64,000 bases of DNA. Source: Bacteroidota bacterium (GTDB taxonomy: Bacteria; Bacteroidota; Ignavibacteria; Ignavibacteriales; Ignavibacteriaceae). Below the pieces are notes generated by a model that saw only the letters and a list, made by a program, of their open reading frames with translations, was not told the DNA's origin and did no database searches. Every line of letters begins with the position of its first letter. Position 1 is the first letter of the stretch. This document shows, one piece after another, positions 5,958-28,352 of this stretch. Position numbers and translations under genes: made by a program. Where the stretch lies: the NCBI GenBank assembly GCA_021777835.1, contig JAJYDC010000015.1, positions 1 to 64,000 of the forward strand, read 5' to 3'.

Positions 5958-6016
5958 TTAAACACCTATAATTATAAATTCTGTTTGTAACTACACAAAA
6001 ATAATTAGTATAATCG

Positions 6017-23444: not shown

Positions 23445-23967
23445 AACCTCACCTTTAATGTTTCTAATTAATTTTTCGATTACAAACTTAACCAAATAAA
23501 TTAATAGTAGCTTAAATATGGACGGATGGAAAAAAAATTCTGTAAGAAGGATCTTGCCAAGACTTAAAACCGGGACAATATATTTTGAATACCGGGAAGA
23601 GAAATAATGCGAAAAATTATCCTGCGGAAATCATAAAACTAATAGAATAGTTGTCAAAAATAGCAGACTTTATTGAAGAGAGTATTACAGGTACAAGATA
23701 AGAGCAAGATAGGTACAAGATATCAAAAATGAGAATAATGCGAAAATGAAGCAAAAACGAAGTATTTGAGAAATGTAAATTTTACCGTCTGCCAAAATGG
23801 CAGACTCAATAAATACTGAAAGAGGTCAATAAAAATGATAACCTTTTAAGAAAAAGATTAATAACTAATTAAATATACCGATTTTTAGAAAAATAATGAA
23901 ACGTTTCAGTAATTGGCGAGAAACTGAAAATCGATTTTAAGCGGATAATTCAAATTAAGTAAGCTAA
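23445..23967. other. AT-rich intergenic region with small repeats
   Basis: No credible gene. It contains three 11-base tandem units at 23689-23721 (AGGTACAAGAT, AAGAGCAAGAT, AGGTACAAGAT) and a perfect short palindrome at 23787-23805. AATAATGCGAAAA recurs near 23612 and 23737. It is the left border of the REP-rich region. Confidence 0.6.
23787..23805. repeat. perfect inverted repeat GTCTGCCA-AAA-TGGCAGAC
   Basis: Two 8-base arms around AAA. It resembles the REP palindromes downstream in carrying GTCTG/CAGAC, but it differs in length and centre and lacks GTAG at its foot. It is not followed by a T run on either strand. Confidence 0.7.
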
Positions 23968-24202
23968 AATAATTTAATCCTCGTAGCACAGACTATCAGT
24001 CTGTGTCTTAACGTAATGGAAAATGAGAAAGCATTTTAAGAAAAATGAAATAGTAATCTATTTTAGTTAAAAGTTTTGGTGAAATAAATCTCAAGTATCA
24101 GAAACATAAATAACTAGTAAATATCATTTATAAAGGTTAAAATTTATTTAGCCGTAATTAAAACGCACAGAATGATAGTCTGTGCTACGGGGGAAAATTA
24201 TT
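23968..24202. repeat. REP-pair (BIME-like) module 1
   Basis: Bounded by palindromes at 23986-24006 and 24165-24185 (start-to-start 179 bp). The left one is preceded by CGTAG and the right one is followed by CTACG, so the two REPs point toward each other. The outer flanks AATAATTT and AAATTATT are also inverted. The interior of about 158 bp is shared with modules 2, 3 and 4. The right palindrome has one arm mismatch (GAATG for GACTG). Confidence 0.88.
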
Positions 24203-24513
24203 AGTAGTATATGCATAAATATTTTTATGAATGGAAAAGAACATCGCAGAATTGAGGAAGAAATGTTTTATGCTTAATATCGTTAAAGAATAAAATCGAT
24301 TTAATATATAAAATGAGTATTTGTAAAATACTGCAAATTGAATTTAAGGGGCATTTTATTTACGGGTAAGGGTAAATGTATGGTAGCTAGGTAGATCGAG
24401 GCTCTGAGAGGAAAAAACGGGCTAAAACCTACGCTATTTCGTATGGTTTTTTAGGGTTGAGTTATTGAATATACAGCATTAAATATTGAGGGGACAAATC
24501 AAAAATAATTTAA
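24203..24513. other. conserved spacer between REP pairs, copy A
   Basis: About 310 bp without an ORF, nearly identical to 27804-28127 in copy B. It holds GTATGGTAGC...GATCGAGGCTCTGAG and ends in a hairpin with a T run (24424-24452). Conservation without coding potential suggests either a recent duplication or a non-coding RNA; the sequence alone cannot decide. Confidence 0.6.
24424..24452 (+). terminator. terminator-like hairpin inside the conserved spacer (copy A)
   Basis: AAAACCTACG pairs with CGTATGGTTTT (one bulged T) around CTATTT, and the 3' arm runs into TTTTTT. The same hairpin is kept at 28035-28063. Confidence 0.5.
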
Positions 24514-24742
24514 TCTTCGTAGCACAGACTATTAGTCTGTGCCTTAACGTAACGGAAAAAGTGAAAGCACTATAAGGAAAATGAAATAGTAATCTATTTT
24601 GCTTAAATGTTTTGGTAAAATAAATCTCAAGTGTTAGAAGCATAAATAACTAGTAAATATCATTTATAAAGGTTATAATTTATTTAGGTGTAATTAAAAC
24701 GCACAGACTGATAGTCTGTGCTACGGGGGGGGGAAATTATTA
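24504..24742. repeat. REP-pair (BIME-like) module 2
   Basis: Palindromes at 24522-24542 and 24701-24721, again 179 bp apart and facing each other. The left foot reads TTCGTAG instead of CTCGTAG, and the right end is followed by a run of nine G. The interior matches module 1. Confidence 0.88.
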
Positions 24743-25242
24743 GTAGTAAATGAATAAAATGTTTTATGACTAATATCGTTAAAGAATAAAATCGATTTAA
24801 CAAATAATACTGATAATTTTGGGGTATTGCATATCGATTCTACAAAGAATTGACAACGGCACTATAGTAAATATTTATTAAATATTTCTTTTAACAAAGA
24901 GCCTGCAAATATCCAGTATGCAAACTGTATAGTGTGCCATTTTTTATAAGTTCTCTTGTATAGTAGCTAAGAATTATTTAAACTTATGCAATAATTTATT
25001 GGGATAAGGTATTTGGCTTAGCGATGAATACTGAAAATAAATTTCAAATTGATTTAAGTGGGGAAAAGCAGCGATGCTCAACAACTTAATAACTTCCAGC
25101 AAGCACTTCATAAATGTAATTCCGGATAAAGGAATTGTATTCTCATTTCTAAAAAGTAATTCGAAATTCTATAATAAATATTATACATTACAAATAACTT
25201 ACAGGGTTGAAATTATACCCGATCATTTAAGCGGAGGGAATC
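24743..25242. other. intergenic region before the TlpA-like gene
   Basis: The first 70 bases are a degenerate copy of the REP spacer. The rest is AT-rich. A small ORF of 58 codons runs from ATG 25074 (weak GTGGGG before it) to 25250 and overlaps the start of the TlpA-like gene; I do not recognise its product. GGAGGG at 25232-25237 is the Shine-Dalgarno site of the downstream gene. Confidence 0.5.
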
Positions 25243-26874
25243 ATGCGTAGCGTAAAATTTCTTTTAGCCATTATGTTTTCGTTTATAGCTATCGTTCATG
25301 CGCAGACAATTGTTAAAGGTACTCTGCTCGGCTATGACGGAAAACCAATGATAAATGCAAACGTTGTAATAAAACAGCCTTTGGATAATGCGGTTTTCAA
25401 ATCGTATGATGTCGGTAAGGATGGAAAATTTAAATTTAAAGTGGATACTACCGGAATCTGGATATTATATTTTATTGGAGTTAATCATACGGCATATCAG
25501 ACAGCTCTCTATGTTGATAAGCCTGCAACTTTAGATTTAAACGTTCGGCTTAGTACTTATGAATATTTATCTGATTTCAGTCATGCGGAAATTATGGGCA
25601 ATTTTAATAATTGGTTAGCCCCGAATGTTAAGATGGAGAAAAATTCAGATGGCACATATTCAGCAGAGATTGACTCCAAATCTGATTCTGTAATATACAG
25701 GTTGTTAAATGTAGCAAAAGGGGATGCTGTTGAAGGGACAGATGCAAGTAGTTACATCTATAACGATTTCGAAGGTTACAACTCTGTTATTTTATCAAAG
25801 CCCGGGAAAGTTAAAATTGTTTTCGATCCTAAAAAGATTGTTAAATCAACAAGATCAAATGAAGCAACTTTTTCAGATTCAGCTTCTTTAACTGTTCAAT
25901 TTGCAATTACGTATAATAAAATATTAGCAAATAGATTAGCCATAAAGAAGGCTATAATGGAATATCAAAGCTCCGGAAAAGATCTTCATGCATTCAGATA
26001 CGATTGGACAAAAGAGGTTGACTTATTTACATCTGAAATTAAAGCAGAAAAAAATAATCTAATTAGAAATGAGTTATTAACTGGCTACTTAGATCTTGCA
26101 ACCATGACTGCAAAGGTAGACAGTGCTATGGTTGTAAAAGCAATTAAAGATATACCTCCATCCTCATTTTTATGGTCTCTTAATCCAGACATATTACAAT
26201 CTGTCTTCAGTATCGCAGGAGTAAGAGGAGAGAAATATGAAGAAAGTCTGAAGCGATTTGTAAGTGAAAATAAAAACGTAAATGTTAAATCTTTTGCGCT
26301 TTTTTTATTGTTTATGGATGCAAGAACTCAAAAGAAAGAGGACGATGCATCTAAGTATTACAAAACCCTTGTCAGCGAATACGCTAACACTTATATAGGT
26401 GCAATGGTTAAGAAAGGTTTCTCCGATGTAGTCCACATAAAAGTCGGAAGTCCTATTCCGAAATTTTCATTTGTTTCATTAGATGATTCATCTAAGGTTG
26501 TAACAAACGAGTCTCTTAAAGGTAAGAATTATTTGATAGACTTTTGGGCAACCTGGTGCGGACCATGCGTAGGTCAAATGAAGCTACTTAATGATGCATA
26601 CGAAAAATATAAAAATAAAAACTTTACGATAGTAAGCGTATCGTTTGATAGAACTCCGCAGGACATAATAAAATTCAGAAATGAGAAATGGAAGATGCCC
26701 TGGTTCAATTCATTCCTTGCAGCAAACATGCAGTCAAGTATTCAAAAAGAATTTGATATCATGGGCATACCAAATCCCATATTAGTAAACGACAAAGGAA
26801 TAGTTGTTGCGGTATTAGGAGATTTATACGGCGAAAAACTGGATAAAACGCTCGGTAATTTGTTGAATAAATAA
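25243..26874 (+). CDS. secreted TlpA-like thioredoxin-fold protein
   Basis: A 543-residue protein with a signal peptide (cleaved after about IVHAQ). An N-terminal strand-rich part resembles a carboxypeptidase-regulatory-like domain (GTLLGYDGKPMINANVVIK), followed by SHAEIMGNFNNWLAPNVKMEK, which recalls the AMPK-type carbohydrate-binding fold. A helical middle comes next, then a TlpA/ResA-type C-terminal domain with FWATWCGPC (Cys439, Cys442) and the cis-Pro region MGIPNPILVN. It is probably a periplasmic thiol-disulfide protein. It sits between the two large repeat copies and has no operon partner. Confidence 0.85.
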   Translation: MRSVKFLLAIMFSFIAIVHAQTIVKGTLLGYDGKPMINANVVIKQPLDNAVFKSYDVGKDGKFKFKVDTTGIWILYFIGVNHTAYQTALYVDKPATLDLNVRLSTYEYLSDFSHAEIMGNFNNWLAPNVKMEKNSDGTYSAEIDSKSDSVIYRLLNVAKGDAVEGTDASSYIYNDFEGYNSVILSKPGKVKIVFDPKKIVKSTRSNEATFSDSASLTVQFAITYNKILANRLAIKKAIMEYQSSGKDLHAFRYDWTKEVDLFTSEIKAEKNNLIRNELLTGYLDLATMTAKVDSAMVVKAIKDIPPSSFLWSLNPDILQSVFSIAGVRGEKYEESLKRFVSENKNVNVKSFALFLLFMDARTQKKEDDASKYYKTLVSEYANTYIGAMVKKGFSDVVHIKVGSPIPKFSFVSLDDSSKVVTNESLKGKNYLIDFWATWCGPCVGQMKLLNDAYEKYKNKNFTIVSVSFDRTPQDIIKFRNEKWKMPWFNSFLAANMQSSIQKEFDIMGIPNPILVNDKGIVVAVLGDLYGEKLDKTLGNLLNK

Positions 26875-26911
26875 AGTGCTGTTCTATTTAAGTTAGCTAA
26901 AATAATTTAAT

Positions 26912-27127
26912 CCTCGTAGCACAGACTATTAGTCTGTGCCTTAACGTAACTGAAAATGTGAAAGTACTAAGAGAATAATAAACCATTGTATTTATTTTAC
27001 TTAAATGTTTTGGTGAAATAAATTTCAAGTGTCAGAAACATAAATAACTAGTAAATATCATTTATAACGGTTAAAATTTATTTAGCCGTAATTAAAACGC
27101 ACAGACTAATAGTCTGTGCTACGGGGG
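26912..27127. repeat. REP-pair (BIME-like) module 3
   Basis: Palindromes at 26919-26939 and 27099-27119 (180 bp apart). Both arms are perfect: GCACAGACT, three-base centre, AGTCTGTGC. The left foot is CCTCGTAG, and the right end is CTACGGGGG. It lies 37 bp downstream of the TlpA-like stop and 20 bp before the RAYT start. Confidence 0.9.
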
Positions 27128-27146
27128 AGGATGTAAGACTGTAAGC

Positions 27147-27728
27147 ATGAATAGACAATTTCATCGCCGTAATTTGCCACACCTTCATTCTGATGATGGA
27201 ATATATTTCGTTACTTTCCGGCTGGCTAATACTATTCCACACGCTATGCTTGATAAAATTAAGTGCAATAAACCCGATTGGAATTTTGAAGAATATAAAA
27301 AAGCATTTCTTAAATATGATTCATTACTTAATAACAATGAAGCCGGAGTAAGTTACCTTTCTCAAAAAGAAATATCAGATACTTGTAAGATGACTCTCCA
27401 TTATCCTGATGGCAAGGATTATAAACTTATTTGTTATTGCATTATGCCAAATCATATTCATTTTGTGTTTGAGCTTTTGCCGGGCAATAAGGGACTAAGT
27501 AAAATTATGCAAAGTGTAAAAGGCATTTCCTCTAGGGAGTGTAATTTAATTCTGCAAAGAGACGGTAAATTCTGGCAGGATGAAAGCTATGATAGACTGC
27601 TACGCAATGAGGTTGAACTGTATTTTGTTATTAAGTATGTTTTGATAAATCCTGTAGAATCTGGGTTAGTGAATAATTGGCAGGGCTGGGAATATACTTA
27701 TTGCCATAAGGATTATGTCGTTTTGTAA
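27147..27728 (+). CDS. REP-associated tyrosine transposase (RAYT, Y1/HUH family)
   Basis: A 193-residue single-strand transposase-like protein of the IS200/IS605-related Y1 family. The N terminus (YFVTFRLANTIPHAML) is typical. The metal-binding HUH motif is IMPNHIHFVFEL (His103, His105), and the catalytic Tyr is probably Tyr164 in IKYVLINPVESGLV. FWQDESYDRLLR and the C-terminal W.GWEYT also fit RAYTs. The length is complete and the frame intact. Palindromes with GTAG feet flank it closely on both sides, the known partner sequence of RAYTs. These proteins cut and rejoin REP hairpins; whether they mobilise them is still debated. Confidence 0.93.
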   Translation: MNRQFHRRNLPHLHSDDGIYFVTFRLANTIPHAMLDKIKCNKPDWNFEEYKKAFLKYDSLLNNNEAGVSYLSQKEISDTCKMTLHYPDGKDYKLICYCIMPNHIHFVFELLPGNKGLSKIMQSVKGISSRECNLILQRDGKFWQDESYDRLLRNEVELYFVIKYVLINPVESGLVNNWQGWEYTYCHKDYVVL

Positions 27729-27774
27729 AAACATACACTGTACTGATATATTTTTGGCATAGTATAATAGAACG

Positions 27775-27795
27775 GCACAGACTGATAGTCTGTGC
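27775..27795. repeat. single REP palindrome downstream of the RAYT gene
   Basis: GCACAGACT, centre GAT, AGTCTGTGC, followed by CTACGGGGG on the plus strand. It is in the same orientation as the right REP of each pair and forms the right end of the unit inserted in copy B. Confidence 0.9.
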
Positions 27796-27803
27796 TACGG
27801 GGG

Positions 27804-28127
27804 AAGATATTTTAGTAGTATATGCATAAATATTTTTATGAATGGAAAAGAACATCGCAGAATTGAGGAAGAAATGTTTTATGCTTAATATCGTTAAAGA
27901 ATAAAATCGATTTAATAAATAAAATGAGTATTTGTAAAAAACTGCAAATTGAATTTAAGGGGCGTTTTATTTACGGGTAAGGGTAAATGTATGGTAGCTA
28001 GGTAGATCGAGGCTCTGAGAGAAAAAAACGGGCTAAAACCTACGCTATTTCGTATGGTTTTTTATGGTTGAGTTATTGAATATACAGCATTAAATATTGA
28101 TGAGACAAATCAAAATAAATTATCAAG
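27804..28127. other. conserved spacer between REPs, copy B
   Basis: Nearly identical to 24203-24513, including TGCATAAATATTTTTATGAA, the GGTAGATCGAGGCTCTGAGA stretch and the terminator-like hairpin at 28035-28063. No ORF of note. Confidence 0.6.
28035..28063 (+). terminator. terminator-like hairpin inside the conserved spacer (copy B)
   Basis: Same stem, loop and T run as at 24424-24452: AAAACCTACG against CGTATGGTTTT, then TTT. Confidence 0.5.
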
Positions 28128-28352
28128 AATAATTTAATCCTCGTAGCACAGACTATTAGTCTGTGCCTTAACGTAACTGAAAATGTGAAAGTACTATAAG
28201 AACAATGAAATAGTAATCTATTTTAGTTAAATGTTTTGGTGAAATAAATTTAAAGTGTTTGAAAGATAAATGACTGATAAATATCATTTATAAAGGTTAA
28301 AATTTATTTAGCCGTAATTAAAATGCACAGACTAATAGTCTGTGCTACGAGG
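28128..28352. repeat. REP-pair (BIME-like) module 4
   Basis: Palindromes at 28146-28166 and 28325-28345 (179 bp apart), facing each other. The right end reads CTACGAGG instead of CTACGGGGG, and the sequence beyond it no longer matches the other copies, so this is the right border of the repeat region. Confidence 0.88.

Follow-up and report, generated by a model that had tools for sequence, protein, structure and literature searches.

The window, i.e. the whole 64,000-nucleotide stretch of DNA analysed here, contains an intact gene for a REP-associated tyrosine transposase (RAYT) and nine palindromes of the type GCACAGACT-NNN-AGTCTGTGC, seven of them perfect and two with one mismatch, which lie between 23986 and 28345 (at 23986, 24165, 24522, 24701, 26919, 27099, 27775, 28146 and 28325; Table 1). 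With a chance expectation of 0.01 such palindromes per window, and with nine attained in none of 100 shuffles, the original prediction of nine same-type palindromes within 4.4 kb, with a Y1-family RAYT gene between two of them, is confirmed, and so is the predicted arrangement: eight palindromes form four facing pairs with spacings of 179, 179, 180 and 179 bp, corresponding to modules of 206-207 bp, and the ninth, located 49 bp beyond the end of the RAYT coding sequence, closes the RAYT unit. Every palindrome carries GTAG, the classical REP tag, at one foot, and because this tag is asymmetric each REP has a direction. The GTAG ends point outward within all four pairs, an arrangement described as a head-head (HH) dimer (PMC3733652). 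When oriented by the tag, every REP, here and elsewhere in the genome, has the loop AT[TC], and as single-stranded DNA the REP forms a hairpin with 9 bp in the stem and 3 nt in the loop (-9.3 kcal/mol, z -5.6). Scanning the whole 64 kb for GT[AG]G-tagged hairpins gave eight matches, all at the RAYT locus; the one REP outside these matches has a mutated stem base. No Rfam match to a structured RNA was obtained, and an origin from a plasmid or phage was rejected, as there were no phage matches and the plasmid comparison gave five matches, all weak.

Table 1. Features of the RAYT locus in window coordinates
Feature	Position	Strand	Remarks
HH module 1	23983..24188	+	REP dimer, GTAG outward
HH module 2	24519..24724	+	
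HH module 3	26916..27122	+	
HH module 4	28143..28348	+	
REP 1L	23983..24006	+	GTAG-tagged, terminal base mismatch
REP 1R	24165..24188	-	One stem mismatch; 'empty site' REP
REP 2L	24519..24542	+	
REP 2R	24701..24724	-	
REP 3L	26916..26939	+	
REP 3R	27099..27122	-	24 bp upstream of RAYT start codon
RAYT gene	27147..27728	+	193 aa, intact ORF; HUH motif NHIH (N102-H105); Tyr Y164
REP closing RAYT unit	27775..27798	-	Orientation same as REP 3R
REP 4L	28143..28166	+	
REP 4R	28325..28348	-	
Duplicated block A	23961..24726	+	Module, 336-bp spacer, module; without RAYT
Duplicated block B	26895..28350	+	Block A plus RAYT unit

The HUH histidines and Y164 of the RAYT are invariant in 22 sequences, and the protein scores 36.5 bits with the Pfam Y1_Tnp profile (cut-off 23). 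It passes the NCBIfam REP_Tyr_transpos profile narrowly, with 82.2 bits against a cut-off of 80 and a marginal 78 bits in the genome scan, whereas the NCBIfam IS200 equivalog profile gives 27.6 bits, well under its cut-off of 55. A profile of relatives matched a single PDB chain, the E. coli TnpA-REP 4er8, and a structure search with the AlphaFold model (pLDDT 83) likewise had 4er8, in which TnpA-REP sits on a REP hairpin, at the top (E 1.6e-8), followed by the ISDra2/IS608 transposases at 1.7e-5 or weaker. In the RAYT tree E. coli RayT falls inside a 33-row set (97/90), but the branches of both E. coli RayT and the IS200 outgroup are very long. The gene is under purifying selection, since pN/pS is 0.18-0.34 among relatives. 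The genome has one RAYT copy, and the only other Y1 gene found in it encodes a plain IS200-like transposase of 148 aa on C67 (L089:821-1267). About 17 nt before the RAYT start, a G-run after CTAC (GGGGGAGGA, window 27123-27131) resembles a ribosome-binding site; similar G-rich stretches are found downstream of many REPs in the same genome.

The modules are part of two duplicated blocks, A and B, with a TlpA-like gene (25243-26874) between them. After its first module block B holds the RAYT unit (27099-27775, about 676 bp from REP to REP), which consists of the RAYT gene and one further REP and is bounded by REPs of the same orientation, and the two blocks align at 92% over 587 columns after this insertion point and at 89% before it. 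REP 1R, the junction REP of block A, has the left flank of REP 3R together with the loop and right flank of the REP at 27775, and because of these hybrid flanks block A resembles an empty site or an excision product. Originally the pairing was taken as a property of the REP family, to be sought genome-wide as a 215-bp module, but BLASTN with a 249-bp module query returned four copies only, all at the RAYT locus. Nearly all other matches consisted of the REP alone, the 22 REPs away from the locus are single or head-to-tail, REP pairs in relatives have other spacings, and the dimer is thus not dispersed as in a REPIN. From the module alignment and the absence of modules elsewhere, the four equally spaced modules are best read as one dimer that was duplicated locally along with its flanking DNA, rather than as four separate insertions. 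Their inverted ends and their four copies at 88-90% identity are also what one would see if an unrelated DDE transposase had mobilised them as MITEs, the inverted REPs serving as terminal repeats, but the homology continues past the left REP for about 20 bp, the 206-bp module is undispersed in the assembly and REPs lacking the interior are found singly across seven contigs, which leaves hardly any probability for this explanation.

The filled and empty state of the two blocks may be due to the transposase, to recombination between direct REPs or to gain of the RAYT before the duplication. It seems unlikely to us that the enzyme encoded by the RAYT unit (gene and one REP) inserted this unit into an existing REP, or excised it from one, so that blocks B and A would represent two states of a REPtron still moving as a unit; ordinary recombination between direct REPs or divergence after block duplication accounts for the pattern as well. 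The stretches examined for same-genus synteny contained the neighbouring GH3 gene (72-81%) but neither the RAYT nor the TlpA-like and nitroreductase genes, and they gave no clean empty chromosomal site. The same features may furthermore be taken to mean that RAYT and REPs form an ordinary IS200/IS605-like insertion sequence, a 676-bp unit that moves by single-strand peel-and-paste and whose left and right ends are the REPs at 27099 and 27775, since IS200/IS605 end hairpins have the same orientation as well and since block A resembles an unoccupied block B with the junction inside a REP. This is, however, improbable in view of the facts that there is one RAYT copy in the genome, that the orientation of the flanking REPs varies among the RAYT loci of relatives, and that the best fold match is TnpA-REP and not TnpA-IS200. 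In relatives that do have two RAYTs (G042 and G017), matches between the copies reach 74-83% at most and are confined to short stretches, each copy is accompanied by a separate REP family, and no recent transposition is seen there. An IS200 element was rejected as the main reading, as neither a second RAYT copy nor near-identical copies at several sites were found.

REPs of the GTAG family are extragenic, dispersed hairpins of 20-40 bp with GTAG at one foot, and they usually exceed 100 copies per genome, the 'usually' making copy number a soft feature. In the assembly (3.64 Mb, 95 contigs, 98% complete) pattern searches with the core CAGACT-NNN-AGTCTG, allowing at most one mismatch and including the tag, gave a total of 31 REPs on seven contigs, which is below the usual copy number; control patterns with the letters reversed had 0 or 1 match per strand. 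Two subtypes occur across the genome, GTAGCACAGACT and GTAGCCCAGACT. Seven REPs of the latter type form a head-to-tail array with 37-39 bp spacing on C67 (L089:10279-10521, G000:C67), and no RAYT of its own was found for this subtype. Contig C5 has a tandem duplication of about 2,457 bp with identical ORFs of 385 and 225 aa (L088:812-5725, G000:C5), possibly an assembly artefact, with one REP in each copy and a third at 6007. Furthermore, one REP recurs in two species with flanks that are nearly identical (ACCCCCGTAG...CTCCTCTT; L173 at G011:C225:21015, and G000:C77:25), and this REP site may consequently be old and shared.

The REPs at 27099 and 27775 are terminator-like by score on the minus strand, and 29 of the 31 REPs lie outside ORFs of at least 100 aa, both of which would suit hairpins kept mainly for bidirectional transcription termination or as mRNA ends, with the RAYT as an incidental neighbour. 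We consider this very improbable, since a terminator has no need of an asymmetric GTAG and yet 30 of the 31 copies have it in exact form, since the T-run is found on one side only, since head-to-tail arrays of seven are unexpected of terminators, and since across species RAYT genes show a strong enrichment of tagged hairpins, which moreover diverge together with the RAYT. The latter follows from a comparison of 37 RAYT loci, that of the window included, mostly from Ignavibacteria and their order and some from other phyla. Here a GT[AG]G-tagged hairpin lies within 500 bp of the RAYT at 28 loci, on both sides at 14, while dinucleotide shuffles averaged 0.5 loci and never exceeded 3, in no case with hairpins on both sides, and permuted tags gave 1-6. 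The distance between REP stems is furthermore correlated with that between RAYTs (Mantel r 0.726, p 0.0001, n=26 loci), which shows that RAYT and REP stay together by descent and does not prove recognition, as shared descent alone can give co-divergence. The tree groups the window RAYT with L110, L112 and L114 with moderate support (87/78). The window, L110 and L112 have CACAGAC stems and neighbouring RAYTs have CACAGATT, a difference that affects both sides of a pair. No tagged hairpin was found near L114/L198 (G029:C59), the RAYT of which is 53% identical to that of the window and whose tree neighbours have such hairpins. Some RAYT subclades have GTAA (e.g. GTAACACAGATT, GTAACGCAAG) or GTAC as tag in place of GTAG (L039, L191, L190, L192, L197; L193). 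Tag degeneracy has been reported at positions 2 and 3 (PMC3733652), and under the guide-sequence model a change at position 4 would shift the cleavage dinucleotide.

CACAGAYT palindromes are found in seven of the ten genomes with a close RAYT (E < 1e-70) as against 16 of the 69 without (Fisher p 0.005), these 16 having 1-8 copies each and including some genomes of the same genus. GTAG is present in most of the genomes checked for such orphan REPs (G001, G007, G008, G011 and G030) and is lacking from both copies checked in G048. The genome-wide occurrence of the palindromes in genomes without any RAYT had been named beforehand as evidence against the partnership, and this is borne out in part. 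Orphan REPs left after RAYT loss are known from E. coli strains (PMC3733652), so that exclusivity is weakened and the partnership as such is not. Some of the orphans may also stem from incomplete assemblies.

The motifs, profiles and fold of the protein, the enrichment of flanking hairpins and the co-divergence of RAYT and REP thus all support the predicted association of the RAYT with a REP family of its own, and we read the locus, with a probability of roughly 0.9, as a REPtron, in which a conserved RAYT of the Y1/HUH type, present once in the genome, lies among copies of its cognate REP. By analogy with the TnpA-REP proteins of E. coli and S. maltophilia (PMC8266576), from which binding, cleavage, strand transfer and mobilisation are extrapolated, the RAYT would most likely bind the GTAG-CACAGACT-AT[TC]-AGTCTGTG hairpin when this is single-stranded, for example in the lagging-strand template, and would then cleave next to the hairpin through Tyr164 and rejoin or spread REPs, either singly or as inverted dimers. 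The partnership is thereby extended into the Ignavibacteria, a lineage that has received little study and in which each of several species possesses a RAYT and a divergent hairpin of its own, and these pairs form a natural series in which to follow the joint change of a domesticated enzyme of the HUH type and its hairpin. RAYT lineages in the compared set differ in the REP stem and, in some subclades, also in the final base of the GTAG tag, and since the tag is thought to guide the choice of cleavage site, such divergent pairs would test that model directly. In the literature searched, the coverage of which was incomplete, no paper was found to link Ignavibacteria with REP-associated transposases, in agreement with the original prediction. 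Its statement that the partnership is known mostly from Proteobacteria does however understate the literature, as GTAG REPs are on record for Cyanobacteria, Chloroflexi and the PVC group (PMC3733652) and as published RAYT surveys already include Bacteroidetes and Cyanobacteria, where RAYTs of subclass 2.4 with flanking REPs abound (PMC6006769).

Among known systems, E. coli K-12 RayT/TnpA-REP (4er8) shares the HUH Y1 fold, the single copy and the flanking GTAG-tagged hairpins, but it is about 15% identical, and its REPs, of which E. coli has hundreds, are bulged. REPtron Sm of Stenotrophomonas maltophilia (group 3) resembles the present locus in having GTAG directly followed by a perfect 8-bp stem, a 3-nt loop and a single adjacent RAYT, and differs in its stem and in belonging to another protein subclass, with the motif DH[LF]H; for this REPtron cleavage has been measured, at CT (PMC8266576). 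In REPtrons Ma and Mb of Marinomonas sp. MWYL1 the REPs are, as here, concentrated around the RAYT, which has been read as recent arrival and local multiplication (PMC8266576), although this host is a Gammaproteobacterium with another REP and another protein. The HH dimers and REPINs of the GTAG family likewise have inverted REPs with GTAG outward and form clusters in which dimers are repeated with flanking DNA (PMC3733652, PMC3116915), but most have an interior of 20-100 bp as opposed to about 158 bp here, and the window dimer is confined to one locus. By its described features the RAYT appears to be nearest to subclass 2.4, equivalent to RAYT group 4, with which it shares the NH[IFV]H and WQ motifs, GTAG REPs, a non-proteobacterial host and the length (193 aa against 194 aa in the table for that subclass), and the 'double foot' REPs of this subclass are also seen in its close relatives (PMC6006769). 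It differs in the tyrosine motif, YVLINP as compared to YIxNNP, and in that the gene has no internal tagged hairpin, a REP within the RAYT gene being predominant but not universal in subclass 2.4, and Ignavibacteria are unmentioned in the paper describing it (PMC6006769). The locus is thus a known type of domesticated transposase among hairpins that it should recognise, and it extends a known partnership rather than constituting a new kind of system.
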